64,000 nt of DNA from Candidatus Thorarchaeota archaeon (GTDB taxonomy: Archaea; Asgardarchaeota; Thorarchaeia; Thorarchaeales; Thorarchaeaceae), in assembly GCA_003345545.1 (NCBI GenBank), contig PRDH01000003.1, forward strand, positions 17,413 through 81,412, in the 5' to 3' direction. The notes below the pieces were generated by a model. The model saw only the letters and a program-made list of their open reading frames with translations, ran no database searches and had not been told where the DNA came from. This document shows, piece after piece, positions 14,565 to 20,272 of this stretch (positions are counted from its first letter, which is position 1; each line of letters opens with the position of its first letter). Made by a program: the position numbers and the translations under genes.

Positions 14565-15482
14565 GTGCCTAAGGCAATCTTCTCGATTTGGTGGGACGAC
14601 CGTCTTGGACCCATGGTTGGGCGTTCATACCCTGAGGCACCACCGCTTTCCAGTGAGGAGGCCGTCACAGTCTTTATGGGTCATGGAGCAAACATGGAAA
14701 TTCAGGTAGGATATTCCAAGATCCAGAGTGGCGTTGTGATATCATATATGAGACCACCAAACTGCATAGCCGTTCTCTTAGATGATGGAGAGAACAGCGC
14801 AACGATCGAGAGAAACATCTTGCGACTAGCGCCCACTATTGATTTCAATAGCGATACCTGGGACAGAGAACTCGAAAAGGCGTATCGTGGTCTTGAGGAT
14901 CTGATTACTGAAACCACTGGCGAGGAACTACTCCTGAATCCGAATGTGAAGCATCTCGTTGCAGACATGATGGATGGCCGACTTGCGTCAGTCACACCAA
15001 CACATGTACTGAAGGCAACAATCAGATATCCAGATGCACATGAGTATCTAGGCAACGACGATGAAGAAGTGTTGAGACTTCTCAGAGACCTCGAGGATGA
15101 GGAAGTGCTTGAGTCCCGTACGTATGGCCGAAGAGTTGAGTGTCGCCAGTGCGGCGATTCTGATTTGATGATTAGCCTTCTGTGTCCTTCATGCAACTCT
15201 GAGGACATACACAAGGTCTACACAGTGTATTGCCCTAAGTGCGGCAATCAATTCCAGACATTGTTGGCCGATGATCTTGCAGTAGTCAAATGCTTGAGCT
15301 GCAAACAACCAGTGAAGGTCAGCCAGCTCTCTGTCATCGATGTCGAGCCGCTATGCAACAAATGTGGTACTGCATCCAATGACCCAAAGATAGTGTTCAA
15401 GTGTGGGACATGCGGAAAGCAGTTGAAAGGGGCCGATCTACTATCGGGCACTGGATTGGCGTACTATTTCAGGAATGTGTAG
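14565..15482 (+). CDS. Longin-like N-terminal domain plus multi-zinc-ribbon C-terminal protein
   Basis: N-terminus AIFSIWWDDRLGPMVGRSYPE...; C-terminus CRQCG, CPSC, CPKCG, CLSC, CNKCG, CGTCG pairs. Start codon uncertain. Confidence 0.6.
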   Translation: MPKAIFSIWWDDRLGPMVGRSYPEAPPLSSEEAVTVFMGHGANMEIQVGYSKIQSGVVISYMRPPNCIAVLLDDGENSATIERNILRLAPTIDFNSDTWDRELEKAYRGLEDLITETTGEELLLNPNVKHLVADMMDGRLASVTPTHVLKATIRYPDAHEYLGNDDEEVLRLLRDLEDEEVLESRTYGRRVECRQCGDSDLMISLLCPSCNSEDIHKVYTVYCPKCGNQFQTLLADDLAVVKCLSCKQPVKVSQLSVIDVEPLCNKCGTASNDPKIVFKCGTCGKQLKGADLLSGTGLAYYFRNV

Positions 15483-15505: not shown

Positions 15506-17113
15506 CTAGCTATCTTCCTTCTTCTTACCTTTCTTTATTGTCTTCTTCACCACAGTTCTAGCATCTTTCACTATCTTCTCTGCGCGTCCGTCACTGAGTC
15601 CATCGATCTTCTGTGCAAGCCTTTGCGGTGTTTCACCAGCGAGTTGGACGGCAGATTCGTAACCAGCCGCCTTAAGCTTCTTCTCCAGAGCCTCGCCGAT
15701 TCCAGGAATTCCTTGAAGGGACATATTTGACTTGGAATCTTCACCGAGTATTTCACTCATATCACTATCACTCAATTCAGTGCCCGCATCGATTATGTCG
15801 ATCTGACTCTTAATTGAATCAAAGTCATGTGATCCAACAAAGGCGTCAACTGTCTTTTTCACCTGACGGTCATCAAAGTCAAAGGCCAATTCCTCAATCT
15901 CTATCTCCCGTCCCAGAATCGCTGGAAGATGCCCCGTAAGGTACAGAGCTATAAGAGATGAGAATATGGCCACTTGTCCACCGAATACGGTCAGATAGCT
16001 AGGAATATGAAACTGTATCCCGAATACAAGGAGATTGAGATCAACAGCTAAAAACAGTAGCACATAGCCCAAGAAGAAGAACCAAATCAGGGATAGCCGA
16101 ATTCCCTTTGTTCGGACAGAACCAAGCTCTGGCCAAATCAGACACACACATAGCCCAAGAAGGTAGCCCTCGAAGAACCTTTCAGAACTGAGTAGGATCT
16201 GAAGCAATGAGAACAAGTCCGTATCCTGAAAGAAACCAGTGTATAGAGTGGAACCAAAAATCGTCAATAATCCCATCATCAAAAGAGCAAAACTGAAAGC
16301 GGGCTTTCTACCCTTAGTGTCAGCAATGACACCTGCAACTACTATGCCAAGGATGAGAATAAGCGTTTCGAGTAAGGGCAAGTTAACATATTGACTCAAT
16401 GATTCAAAAGAGGAGTCTCCTGCAAAATGCTCCTGAAAGCTGAGTTTCATCACCATGTACCAAAGTATGTATGAAGCCATGATCAATACAGTAGGGGTGA
16501 AATATGTGAGAACACTCCCAGATGCTGCGAGGCGCGCCCTAGGTTGTCGCCAAGGCTTCATGCCAATTGAAACGATCAGAAGCACAATCGCGATAACTGC
16601 TGGCAGGGTGAGATAGGAAGAGCCCAGAAGGATGCTCATTTGCTCAAATAATGCATAGAGAGTGACGAGGATTATTGTGACGCACAGGAATACTGCTACC
16701 GTGCGACCCCGATACTTAACAATGATGCCTTGATTGACACGAACAGTCCAAAGAACCAAGAGAGAGGCCAATCCAGCAAATGAAGATAGTACTAGGAGCA
16801 ACTCCACAGTTTCCAGTTGCTGCAAGGTGAGTGGAGCAAGTCTAAGCAATGCAACTATTGGCGTGACTACCGCGGCAAGGACTACCAAGAAGTCAATTCT
16901 TCGTATTCGATCTGCAAGAATACCCGTCAATGGAAGTGCAAAGACAGCAGCGAGTGCACCGAGCCCTAGTAGTCCATAGTGTTCCAGGAGTGTCAGACCA
17001 AAGAGTGTACCTGATATCAGTTTCAGTATGATATAGATATTCAGTGCTACAGGACCAGCAAACAGAATGAAGAGACTGGCAGTCTTTGTGGGGAACTCAC
17101 GATACTGAAGCAT
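15506..17113 (-). CDS. MFS-like multi-pass membrane protein with cytosolic helix-hairpin-helix C-terminus
   Basis: MFS loops LTGILADRIRR and VAGVIADTKGRKPAFSF; C-terminal LQGIPGIGEALEKKLKAAGYESAVQLAGETPQRLAQKIDGLSDGRAEKIVKDAR. ATG 17113 preceded by GGAGAG. Confidence 0.75.
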   Translation of the reverse strand: MLQYREFPTKTASLFILFAGPVALNIYIILKLISGTLFGLTLLEHYGLLGLGALAAVFALPLTGILADRIRRIDFLVVLAAVVTPIVALLRLAPLTLQQLETVELLLVLSSFAGLASLLVLWTVRVNQGIIVKYRGRTVAVFLCVTIILVTLYALFEQMSILLGSSYLTLPAVIAIVLLIVSIGMKPWRQPRARLAASGSVLTYFTPTVLIMASYILWYMVMKLSFQEHFAGDSSFESLSQYVNLPLLETLILILGIVVAGVIADTKGRKPAFSFALLMMGLLTIFGSTLYTGFFQDTDLFSLLQILLSSERFFEGYLLGLCVCLIWPELGSVRTKGIRLSLIWFFFLGYVLLFLAVDLNLLVFGIQFHIPSYLTVFGGQVAIFSSLIALYLTGHLPAILGREIEIEELAFDFDDRQVKKTVDAFVGSHDFDSIKSQIDIIDAGTELSDSDMSEILGEDSKSNMSLQGIPGIGEALEKKLKAAGYESAVQLAGETPQRLAQKIDGLSDGRAEKIVKDARTVVKKTIKKGKKKEDS

Positions 17114-17208
17114 ATATCTCTCTCCAAGGAATGAAATACCCTGAGACTGATGGGTTATGGACATTTCGACTTCTTATTTATATCGAGAGCCTTTTCAATG
17201 TACCAGCA

Positions 17209-18180
17209 ATGAACCTCAGCGATATCTTAATGTCCTCTCAGTTTTCCCTAAGATACACGGAGCGAGAAAGTTTGGTTGGAAAGCTTGGTGTAAACGAATT
17301 CATGGTCTTGACTACAGGAGGTACTCCGATTTTCCACTACTCTACAACAGACACTCCAAAGCTTGATCATCTCCTTTCGGGATTCATTAGTGCAATAACA
17401 AGCTTTGCAACTGAATTTGGCGAGCGATCCATTCAGAGCCTATCATTCGAAGGGTCACAACTTCTCTATGAGCAACACGATAATAACTACCTCTGCGTCT
17501 TCCTTGTAGAAACAGGTTCGTCAGAGAAGGTGCTTCGCGCAGTACTGCGCGAGCTGAGCAAGAAATTCATGTCGCGATATAGAGACGAATTGAAGATGGA
17601 TGTCCCAATTCTAGATGTCTTTATGGACTTCGAACAAGTGGTCAAGAGCGTCTTGTCTCACTATGAAGGAGTCCTCGCAGAAATATCAGGTTTCAGCAGC
17701 TTTTCAGTCCCTGAAATCAAGAAAGCCGATTTGGACATAGCAACCGAGTCAGAGGGTTTTCTGGACGAATTCCATCGTGACTTTGGTACCTCAGGCAATA
17801 GAGTTCTATCTGTAATCGATGGCAAGAAGACGCTATATGATATGAGCCGCGACCTCGGAATCACTCCAGTAGAAATCCGAGATGTGGTCGAATACTTGGC
17901 AATTAGAGGATTCCTAGGCATCTCAAGCCTCTGCCCGCTGATCAAAGGAAATGATGCGCGCTTTGAAGCCTATCTAGACATTGTTGGCCTTCCAAGCAAG
18001 GACTATCAGCTTCTTGAGAGAGCAAAGAATCTATGCAACGGGAAGAGGACACTTGTAGAAGTCAGTGAAAGACTCGGAGTCAATCCTGAGCGGCTCTACG
18101 ATGTTCTTGAAAAGATGGGAGAGGAAGTTGAATGGAGACTCGTTGAAGTCTCCACTTCTTTGCACACATTTTCACCCTAG
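17209..18180 (+). CDS. Longin/roadblock-like domain protein with winged-helix-like C-terminal segments
   Basis: FMVLTTGGTPIFHYSTTDTPKLDHLLSGFISAI... paralogous to the next ORF; two helical HTH-like segments near the C-terminus. Start inferred. Confidence 0.6.
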   Translation: MNLSDILMSSQFSLRYTERESLVGKLGVNEFMVLTTGGTPIFHYSTTDTPKLDHLLSGFISAITSFATEFGERSIQSLSFEGSQLLYEQHDNNYLCVFLVETGSSEKVLRAVLRELSKKFMSRYRDELKMDVPILDVFMDFEQVVKSVLSHYEGVLAEISGFSSFSVPEIKKADLDIATESEGFLDEFHRDFGTSGNRVLSVIDGKKTLYDMSRDLGITPVEIRDVVEYLAIRGFLGISSLCPLIKGNDARFEAYLDIVGLPSKDYQLLERAKNLCNGKRTLVEVSERLGVNPERLYDVLEKMGEEVEWRLVEVSTSLHTFSP

Positions 18181-18249
18181 TTCACTTTCTTCGAAGTGAT
18201 TAAGTAGGTCTTTGTCCACTGCGAACCACGATTCTAGGAGAATACTCCA

Positions 18250-19527
18250 TTGGTCAAAGAGATCATTGTGCTGCAAGAAGGAGGAATACTTCTCTTCCAC
18301 TATAGCATCGGTGGCACAAAGAAGCTAGATGAACTGGTCGCAGCATTCCTATCAGCAGTCGATTCGTTAGCGCAGCAAGTAGGGCGAGATAGAATCACAA
18401 CGATTTCGTTTGCTGCCAATAAGCTGGTTTGGGAAAAGAAAGGCAACCTGTTCTTCATCGCAATGATTTCTGAAGAGAGCACCAATGAGATATTCAGGAT
18501 CATATTAAGAGATCTCGCCGAGCAATTCGTGAGTATGTATTACGCGGATTTGATGAACGAGTTCTTTGACTTGGGGAGATTCAAGTCATTCACGGATGTT
18601 GTGGAAACAACACTCCACAAATTCGATGGTATCCCTGGATTAGCAAGGCGGTACAAGACAATCTTGCTACCATCTGAAGAGCTGAATATTCTGGCGAAAA
18701 AGCTGGTTGAAGTAGAAGTCAGTCGAGATGTCCTCAGAGGGTGTCTCATTACTTCTGATGGGTATATTGCCCTATCTCATCTTCGCGCCTATGAAATCGA
18801 GATTGTTCTGGATCTCATGCCCATTCTGCTTCGGGATGTTGAGATCAGGGAGCATGCAAGTCTGGAAAAACCAACAGCTCTTCTTCTCATCAGGACTCAT
18901 AACAAGGGCGTCGCGGCATTCATCGTAAGACTTGGATTATCTGAGGAGTCGTACTACGAACTAGTGACGCCATTCTTAGCCTATGCTTCGGAAGCTGACT
19001 TTGAAGGTGCGAGGAAACTTGAACCGGAGAAGACAGAGAGTCAGATCTCATTCTACAGTTTTGATAGAGTCAAGCCGATTGCCAGTATTGATGGCATTGA
19101 GCACGAGCTGAATTCACTGCTTAGCGCAGCCTCCGAGAACACTCGTTCAGGCGCAATCAAATTGAGAGAGGCCCTTCCAGAATCACCACTCGTGGCCGAG
19201 ATTCAGCAGATATTGGCCTTGCCTAAGAATCAATTAGACGAATTGCTCGCCAATCTAATAGCAAGAAACATGATCAGAATCATGAAAGTATTTCCAACTC
19301 TCGACGAGCGTGATGAGAGGTTTTCAATGTTTCTGGAGGTCATTGGAATTAAGAAGAAAGACTTTGATGTCGTCAACACTATCTGGAAGTACTGCGATGG
19401 TAGCCTTTCAATACAGGAAATATCAGAAAGAACAAGCATTCCTGCGCCTAGGATCATGGAAGTCCTGCGCGAACTAGGCAACAATGTTACTTGGTCTAAC
19501 GACCGGAGGTTAATTCATGTCAGGTAA
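18250..19527 (+). CDS. Longin/roadblock-like domain protein with winged-helix-like C-terminus (paralogue of upstream gene)
   Basis: IIVLQEGGILLFHYSIGGTKKLDELVAAFLSAVDSLA...; C-terminal RFSMFLEVIGIKKKDFDVVNTIWKYCDGSLSIQEISERTSIPAPRIMEVLRELG aligns by eye with the upstream ORF. Confidence 0.6.
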   Translation: MVKEIIVLQEGGILLFHYSIGGTKKLDELVAAFLSAVDSLAQQVGRDRITTISFAANKLVWEKKGNLFFIAMISEESTNEIFRIILRDLAEQFVSMYYADLMNEFFDLGRFKSFTDVVETTLHKFDGIPGLARRYKTILLPSEELNILAKKLVEVEVSRDVLRGCLITSDGYIALSHLRAYEIEIVLDLMPILLRDVEIREHASLEKPTALLLIRTHNKGVAAFIVRLGLSEESYYELVTPFLAYASEADFEGARKLEPEKTESQISFYSFDRVKPIASIDGIEHELNSLLSAASENTRSGAIKLREALPESPLVAEIQQILALPKNQLDELLANLIARNMIRIMKVFPTLDERDERFSMFLEVIGIKKKDFDVVNTIWKYCDGSLSIQEISERTSIPAPRIMEVLRELGNNVTWSNDRRLIHVR

Positions 19528-20272
19528 GATCATTTCAATACACAGTTTTCGTGGAGGAACAGGGAAATCGAACATTGCTGCAAATCTTGCAGCATATGCT
19601 GCGTTGCAGGGAAAAAAGGTAGCAGTCATGGATACTGACATGGCATCACCAGGTATTCATGTTATCTTTGGCCTAGGCCGAGAGAAATTGAAGTATACGC
19701 TCAACGACTATCTAAGGGGTTCATGTGATATCACTGATGCTTGTATCGATCTGACAAGTCGTTTAGATATCAAGGGGGGAGGAAAGCTCTTCCTTATTCC
19801 AAGCTCTATGACTGCCACTGATATCACTCGAATTCTGAGAGAAGGCTACGAGGTAGGAGATCTCAAGAAGGGCTTCACTGACGTGATTAAGGCAAAAGAT
19901 CTTGACTATCTCATTATTGACACGCACCCCGGGTTGGACAGAGAAACCCTACTATCAATGGCAACAGCACACTATCTTTTCGTTGTGGCAAGAATAGATG
20001 AACAGGACCTCCTGGGAACAGCCGCAACATTGAGCGTCGCAAGAAAACTCCAGGTTCCTGAGATTCGAATTATCATCAACAAGAAACCAGGTATCTACGA
20101 GGATAAGGCGATTACCTCTGAAGTTGAATCAAAATTCAAAGCCCGAGTCGCTACAATCATTCCGCTTCTTCCCCTGTTGATAGAAGTCGGTAGTCGCTTC
20201 GTGGTCATTTTGAGATATCCAGAAAACGAATTCGCAAAGAACATTGATGACATCTACAGAATGATTCTGTAG
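19517..20272 (+). CDS. MinD/ParA-like P-loop ATPase
   Basis: IISIHSFRGGTGKSNIAANLAAYAALQGKKVAVMDTDMASPGIHVIFGL deviant Walker A; LDYLIIDTHPGLDRETL. Overlaps upstream gene by 11 nt. Confidence 0.85.
   Translation: MSGKIISIHSFRGGTGKSNIAANLAAYAALQGKKVAVMDTDMASPGIHVIFGLGREKLKYTLNDYLRGSCDITDACIDLTSRLDIKGGGKLFLIPSSMTATDITRILREGYEVGDLKKGFTDVIKAKDLDYLIIDTHPGLDRETLLSMATAHYLFVVARIDEQDLLGTAATLSVARKLQVPEIRIIINKKPGIYEDKAITSEVESKFKARVATIIPLLPLLIEVGSRFVVILRYPENEFAKNIDDIYRMIL

Follow-up and report, generated by a model that had tools for sequence, protein, structure and literature searches.

Why would a Thorarchaeal genome encode two related longin-winged-helix proteins next to a MinD-type ATPase? In eukaryotes, Rab and Rag regulation is built around longin/roadblock platforms, the clients known for them in prokaryotes are mainly Ras-like GTPases, and the Thorarchaeota are archaeal relatives of eukaryotes. 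The genes lie in the window, the whole 64,000-nucleotide stretch of Thorarchaeal DNA analyzed here, for which an earlier note, made from the sequence, had proposed two paralogous longin-like/winged-helix proteins coupled to a MinD-like ATPase. It had held that the proposal would fall if the proteins lacked a longin or winged-helix fold or if related genomes lacked the neighborhood; we found the folds predicted and the neighborhood conserved.

The three genes and their products

All three reading frames are present on the plus strand of the window, in the order gene A (17272..18180, 302 aa, TTG start), gene B (18250..19527, 425 aa, TTG start), and the gene for a MinD/ParA-type ATPase (19517..20272, 251 aa, ATG start). 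These coordinates bear out the 11-nt overlap that had been read between the second frame and the MinD-like gene. An ATG at 17209 is an alternative start for A upstream of its TTG. Homologs of A start at TTG 17272, which is preceded by GGAG at 17259-17262; this TTG, rather than the ATG, is the probable true start. A, B, and MinD are conserved across orthologs (45-72%, 28-64%, and 56-93% identity, respectively) with order and strand kept, which rules out chance open reading frames. The nearest named relatives of the ATPase come from Candidatus Thorarchaeota MAGs. All three proteins are small, with no obvious membrane segment, and are accessible to in vitro study.

Upstream of A, the window encodes a TackOD1 output-domain protein with zinc ribbons (14565-15482; 2.1e-16), whose position two genes ahead of A is conserved in most of the Thorarchaeal loci, and a transporter-like multi-pass protein (15506-17164). 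The C terminus of the latter (about 475-550) has a helix-hairpin-helix-like look, and in related genomes it finds matches in the tails of unrelated proteins.

The products of A and B align at one end with 32% identity over 141 aa (E 7e-23) and at the other with 25% identity over 108 aa (E 2e-13); as judged from these alignments they are paralogous over both ends, as had been claimed along with the FHYS motif common to both. This motif sits in the first beta hairpin of each longin domain and is not fixed, orthologs carrying FHYS, FHFS, FHYG, FRYS, or FNFA.

AlphaFold (AF2) models of the individual proteins predicted longin and winged-helix folds in both, with the longin order β-β-α-β-β-β-α in each. 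In A, for which the model was moderate (pLDDT 80, pTM 0.71), the longin domain spans residues ~1-105 (17272..17586; order β1-β2-α1-β3-β4-β5-α2, including the FHYS hairpin), and AF2 and Pfam place tandem winged helices at residues ~163-224 and ~242-292 (17758..18147). In B (pLDDT 77, pTM 0.39; good for each domain, with the global arrangement uncertain), the longin domain at residues 1-125 (18250..18624; Pfam, AF2) is followed by a predicted domain of roadblock topology at residues ~142-248 (18673..18993; AF2 order α-ββ-α-βββ-α, pLDDT 82-93 by block) and by tandem winged helices at residues ~296-351 and ~369-416 (19135..19497; Pfam, AF2). Thus, of the longin/roadblock-like N terminus that the two proteins were said to share, the longin domain stands for both, but the roadblock topology belongs to a separate domain of B; and the related HTH-like C terminus proved to be a related pair of winged helices in each protein, not a single one.

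The Pfam profile Fuz_longin_1 matched 25/30 A orthologs and 28/36 B orthologs, and in the window itself both matches lie below the 26.1-bit cut-off (A, 1.7e-4, 22.3 bits; B, 1.2e-3, 19.5 bits). At the C termini of both window proteins, Pfam gave winged helices of the TrmB/HTH_47 type. HTH_NPRL3 (10/36 B orthologs), Clat_adaptor_s, Longin, and Robl_LC7 were also seen among A and B orthologs, the last in 7/36 B orthologs (best 8.7e-5), a match that did not show in the members displayed and is therefore not localized within B.

Foldseek comparison of A with the PDB returned GATOR1/SEA entries for all of the top 11 matches (E 4e-8 to 1e-5). Foldseek names the complex, not the chain, and the matched chains are consistent with NPRL2/NPRL3. 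Vamp7, Ragulator, and MglB came after these, with the Sec22b longin also among the matches. The best matches of B were Fuzzy-Inturned/CPLANE, Mon1-Ccz1, GATOR1, and BLOC-3, so that longin structures occur among the matches of both proteins. Full-chain TM-scores were low, which is to be expected for flexible multi-domain proteins, and the matches are therefore to be read at the level of fold. Profile searches of the sequences of solved structures with B and A gave only weak matches, including MON1 (E 0.32) and NPRL2 (0.66 and 0.73).

The ATPase and the conservation of the block

Three Pfam profiles matched the ATPase above their cut-offs (PF13614, 4.9e-16; PF10609, 1.5e-14; PF01656, 4e-13), and its best solved relative is the archaeal MinD 1hyq (1.9e-13); by sequence, the neighbor of A and B belongs to the ParA/MinD superfamily. 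Its Walker A motif, FRGGTGKS (19547..19570), carries Arg at the position of the signature Lys and retains the catalytic Lys of the P loop. This Arg had been pointed out as a departure from the usual Lys. It is indeed present, but it does not set this locus apart: R12 and K17 do not vary among 37 family sequences, which come from Asgard archaea, ANME, Chloroflexi, Cyanobacteria, and Alphaproteobacteria, and the Lys that defines the deviant Walker A signature is Arg in 37/37 family members. A local oddity is thereby ruled out, and exceptions at this position are known from BcsQ (RGGVGTT) and McdA (SGGQGKT) (PMC9178275).

The ATPase resembles archaeal MinD (TIGR01969) in its P loop, Walker B region, and length. 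It differs in the signature residue and in its score of 77.4 bits against a cut-off of 201.75; on this score we reject a cell division MinD. No MinC or MinE was noticed on inspection of the reading frames around the locus, and inspection of MinD, which ends near the core fold, revealed no obvious C-terminal amphipathic membrane-targeting helix.

The family extends to Helarchaeota, ANME, Chloroflexi, and Cyanobacteria (44-51% identity for members of the last three), with the same invariant motifs. Unlike the window ATPase, the FRGGTGKS relatives in ANME, Chloroflexi, and Cyanobacteria yielded no longin-winged-helix partner, and in all four groups MinD occurs without A or B. The neighbors of MinD outside the Thorarchaeota and Hermodarchaeota were rich in genes for HAMP (12/51) and cyclic nucleotide monophosphate-binding (6/51) proteins and also Cache, CHASE, and kinase genes; in several Chloroflexi and one cyanobacterium, a small winged-helix-like gene lies directly downstream of MinD. 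The neighbors of the bacterial relatives suggest a signaling rather than a partition setting. As a separate observation, MinD neighbors in Helarchaeota and ANME differ in length but start with stretches that look similar, F-E-[IV]-x-[LI]-x-K...FQ.I..Q..K..S (L110 1226-1558, L124 2216-3850, L132 8781-10415, and L139 2387-4021).

Scanning named genomes with a MinD profile yielded 80 loci, 40 of them from Thorarchaeota and Hermodarchaeota. The coupling of the pair to the ATPase holds up as a conserved linkage, since A, B, and MinD stand together in 28 of these 40; 10 have B and MinD, and two have A and MinD. The 10 loci with B and MinD comprise all seven from Hermodarchaeota and three of Thorarchaeal type on short or cut contigs, and no full-length A-type protein was found in the Hermodarchaeal genomes searched. 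The 11-nt overlap between B and MinD recurs in about half of the Thorarchaeal loci; in most of the others the two genes either overlap or lie within ~20 nt of each other. A and B are 2-3.7 kb apart in three Thorarchaeal loci. One Thorarchaeal MAG with a complete chromosome (L109/L171) has A but lacks B next to it, and its MinD is cut after residue ~165.

The conservation that the earlier note had expected in Asgard genomes therefore holds for Thorarchaeota and Hermodarchaeota but not for Asgard archaea at large. Full-length B was limited to two (f1 and f9) of the 25 Asgard families sampled, ruling out a trio conserved across all Asgards; a B profile matched proteins in 142/148 Asgard genomes, mostly through the longin part. 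The Thorarchaeal part of the MinD tree fits vertical descent, but the tree joins Thorarchaeota with Hermodarchaeota only weakly (88/41) and so falls short of proving that the B-MinD link arose only once. As to a possible loss of the whole block from other genomes of the genus, three (G004, G005, and G010) yielded no close orthologs of the genes that flank it, and in a fourth (G007) the flanking gene runs to the contig end.

How the proteins may act together

The human nutrient-sensing regulators NPRL2 and NPRL3 have as their hallmarks a heterodimer with DEPDC5 and a Rag-GAP activity exerted through a longin arginine finger, and Mon1-Ccz1, Fuzzy-Inturned, and BLOC-3 are tri-longin Rab GEFs with three longin domains. 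The latter, which are among the best fold matches of B, share with A and B an N-terminal longin of the Fuz_longin_1 type; A and B, for their part, have winged helices at the C terminus and adjoin MinD. NPRL2 and NPRL3, of GATOR1/SEACIT, come closer: like A and B they are two paralogs with an N-terminal longin followed by C-terminal tandem winged helices, and GATOR1 is the best structural neighbor of A (for B, it is mixed with Mon1-Ccz1 and Fuzzy-Inturned). They heterodimerize as longin paralogs with Rag-GAP activity (PMC8534245) and carry tandem wHTHs (PMC3521125). They differ in having a Rag GTPase as their switch, whereas A and B are encoded with a MinD ATPase; in addition, B holds a roadblock-like insert, and no DEPDC5-like partner was seen with A and B. 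MglB, to which the locus had first been likened, is not the closest comparison, ranking only 46-47 among the Foldseek matches of A, behind GATOR1, with Mon1-Ccz1 and Fuzzy-Inturned closer for B. MglB/RomY with MglA resembles the locus as a roadblock/longin platform beside a P-loop switch, but MglB has just one roadblock domain and acts on a Ras-like GTPase, whereas the gene next to A and B encodes a MinD ATPase.

Our best reading of the domains and the linkage, which we hold to be about as likely as not, is that A and B form a longin-heterodimer platform that governs the ATP cycle of dimeric MinD. A, B, and MinD would then be a co-expressed switch module in which A and B pair through their longin domains, B adding its roadblock-like domain. 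The platform would be like those that NPRL2-NPRL3, Mon1-Ccz1, and MglB dimers present to small GTPases, and the client encoded with it would be the MinD-type ATPase. MinD would dimerize when ATP bound, and the platform would bind one of its nucleotide states and speed or block hydrolysis; we infer the A-B heterodimer, its binding to MinD, and the direction of control alike. The tandem winged helices would be mainly protein-protein elements that dock a further component. B and MinD would form the core and A would be a Thorarchaeal addition, with a B/B platform in place of A/B in Hermodarchaeota. Such a conserved pair would mean that the platform principle also holds for another class of nucleotide switch. 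The recurrence of longin-winged-helix proteins beside MinD and the signaling setting of its bacterial relatives speak for this reading as well. Of the signaling or polarity role that the earlier note had envisaged, none of our results favors polarity in particular. It counts against the platform reading that co-encoding is not proof of binding, that the overall model of B is weak, that A and B stay below the cut-offs of the Pfam NPR2 and HTH_NPRL3 profiles, and that Helarchaeota and bacteria have the MinD but not A or B. Moreover, the partners known for longin/roadblock platforms are Ras-superfamily GTPases; MinD-type dimeric ATPases, which present a different surface, are not known to be among them. 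No report of the longin-winged-helix/MinD pairing was found in the open-access literature, which is weak evidence, subscription papers and preprints lying outside the scope of the search.

The winged helices might instead bind DNA in the manner of TrmB or MarR, with MinD and the longins sensing a signal and toggling the binding. TrmB is the commonest C-terminal Pfam match (36/36 B and 28/30 A orthologs), and the winged-helix-like gene downstream of several bacterial MinD relatives fits such transcription control. However, the winged helices lie in regions with a net negative charge, strongly so in A (mean, -6.7 over 30 A orthologs and -2.0 in B), which indirectly favors protein contacts over DNA, and the fold neighbors of A and B are longin complexes of membrane and nutrient signaling. 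We regard transcription control as unlikely.

A positioning system, in which B together with A would link MinD to a cargo, in the adaptor role played elsewhere by ParB, McdB, or MinC/E, while MinD forms patterns on nucleoid or membrane, would account for a ParA/MinD-type ATPase with a co-encoded adaptor, and an altered signature residue has a precedent in the positioning ATPase McdA (SGGQGKT) (PMC9178275, PMC6328274). We think it quite improbable, since a non-systematic look beside the locus revealed no MinC, MinE, ParB, or centromere repeat, MinD has no obvious membrane-targeting helix, and its bacterial relatives adjoin sensor genes. That A and B act, as the Rag-GAP NPRL2/3 do, on a Ras/Rag-family GTPase encoded elsewhere, with MinD merely cotranscribed, agrees with the closest architecture (PMC8534245) and with the Ras-family gene that adjoins another Thorarchaeal longin-winged-helix protein, but is very doubtful in view of the B-MinD linkage, which persists in two Asgard lineages and often involves overlapping frames, and of the cut MinD on the chromosome that has no B beside A.

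Longin-winged-helix proteins in other Asgard loci

We searched 119 Asgard genomes with the Pfam profiles HTH_NPRL3 (the C-terminal HTH of NPRL3) and NPR2. At E<=0.01, HTH_NPRL3 matched in 23/119 of them and in 1/14 controls, the control match falling below the cut-off. Among the matches listed, 7/28 were on A or B orthologs (G043, G107, G082, G008, G013, and, with both genes, G020). Only two genomes, G118 and G021, exceeded the curated cut-off, both with longin-winged-helix proteins other than A and B (G118, 30.9 against 27.2 bits). NPR2 matches were weak (E 6e-4 to 3e-3, none above the cut-off), and 5/6 were on longin-winged-helix proteins; a match in L184 falls in a topoisomerase-like frame, which we counted as noise, as we did weak HTH_NPRL3 matches in which no longin was detected (L190, L192, L195, and L196 among them). 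A and B orthologs stayed below the Pfam cut-offs with both profiles. Overall, most matches fell in longin-winged-helix proteins, A and B orthologs included, an association that is not built in, since the profiles span the winged helix and the longin was detected separately. The G118 protein (L160 9300-10331, 343 aa; longin and winged helix) has no MinD adjoining, and a phmmer search with it was unusable alone (bacterioferritin on top at 0.13-0.38, NPRL3 at 0.87).

A and B supply candidate archaeal counterparts of NPRL2/NPRL3; a full-text search of open-access papers for Asgard archaea together with GATOR1 gave only a Myxococcus paper. We tentatively put forward, as a possibility that we hold to be clearly less likely than not, that the Asgard longin-winged-helix family is homologous and ancestral to NPRL2/NPRL3 and in Thorarchaeota and Hermodarchaeota regulates a dimeric MinD-type ATPase, not a Rag GTPase. 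If so, a GATOR1-type regulator would be older than, and separable from, its GTPase. The conserved block that places proteins built like NPRL2/NPRL3 beside a MinD-type ATPase suggests that regulators of this type formerly acted on another kind of molecular switch.

The association of longin-winged-helix proteins with MinD recurs beyond the A/B locus. A second MinD/ParA clade of the same family (Walker A KGGTG[KR]T), found in Thorarchaeota, adjoins a ~205-aa longin-winged-helix protein in four genomes (G016, G020, G021, and G022; L066 1320-2737, L067 8065-9466, L068 1-1183, and L069 7966-9386), the G020 copy ending at the contig end. In two Thorarchaeal genomes, a further longin-winged-helix protein has a Ras-family GTPase gene (Pfam Ras, 5.8e-46) in its vicinity, two genes away in L197. 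With MinD in the one case and a Ras-family protein in the other, longin-winged-helix proteins thus accompany P-loop switches of more than one class.

Some features of these and other loci may be added. The second-clade MinD of L066 reads KGGTGR, Arg replacing the catalytic Lys. In the loci with the Ras-family gene (L197 6377-8576 and L189 3087-6659), the longin-winged-helix protein is ~430 aa long, and near it lie the GTPase and a ~110-aa gene that belongs to no known family. The genome of the window also encodes, on contig C24 (L186 7808-9537), a tandem pair of longin-winged-helix paralogs of ~280-300 aa, with a roadblock/LC7 gene (Robl_LC7, 6.3e-15) one gene beyond; L187 and L188 hold pairs of the same kind. 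In L163 (6196-10851), L164 (9142-12494), and L170 (4465-6819), one to three tandem longin proteins adjoin reading frames that by eye look like the E1-type and JAB-type components of a ubiquitin-like system.
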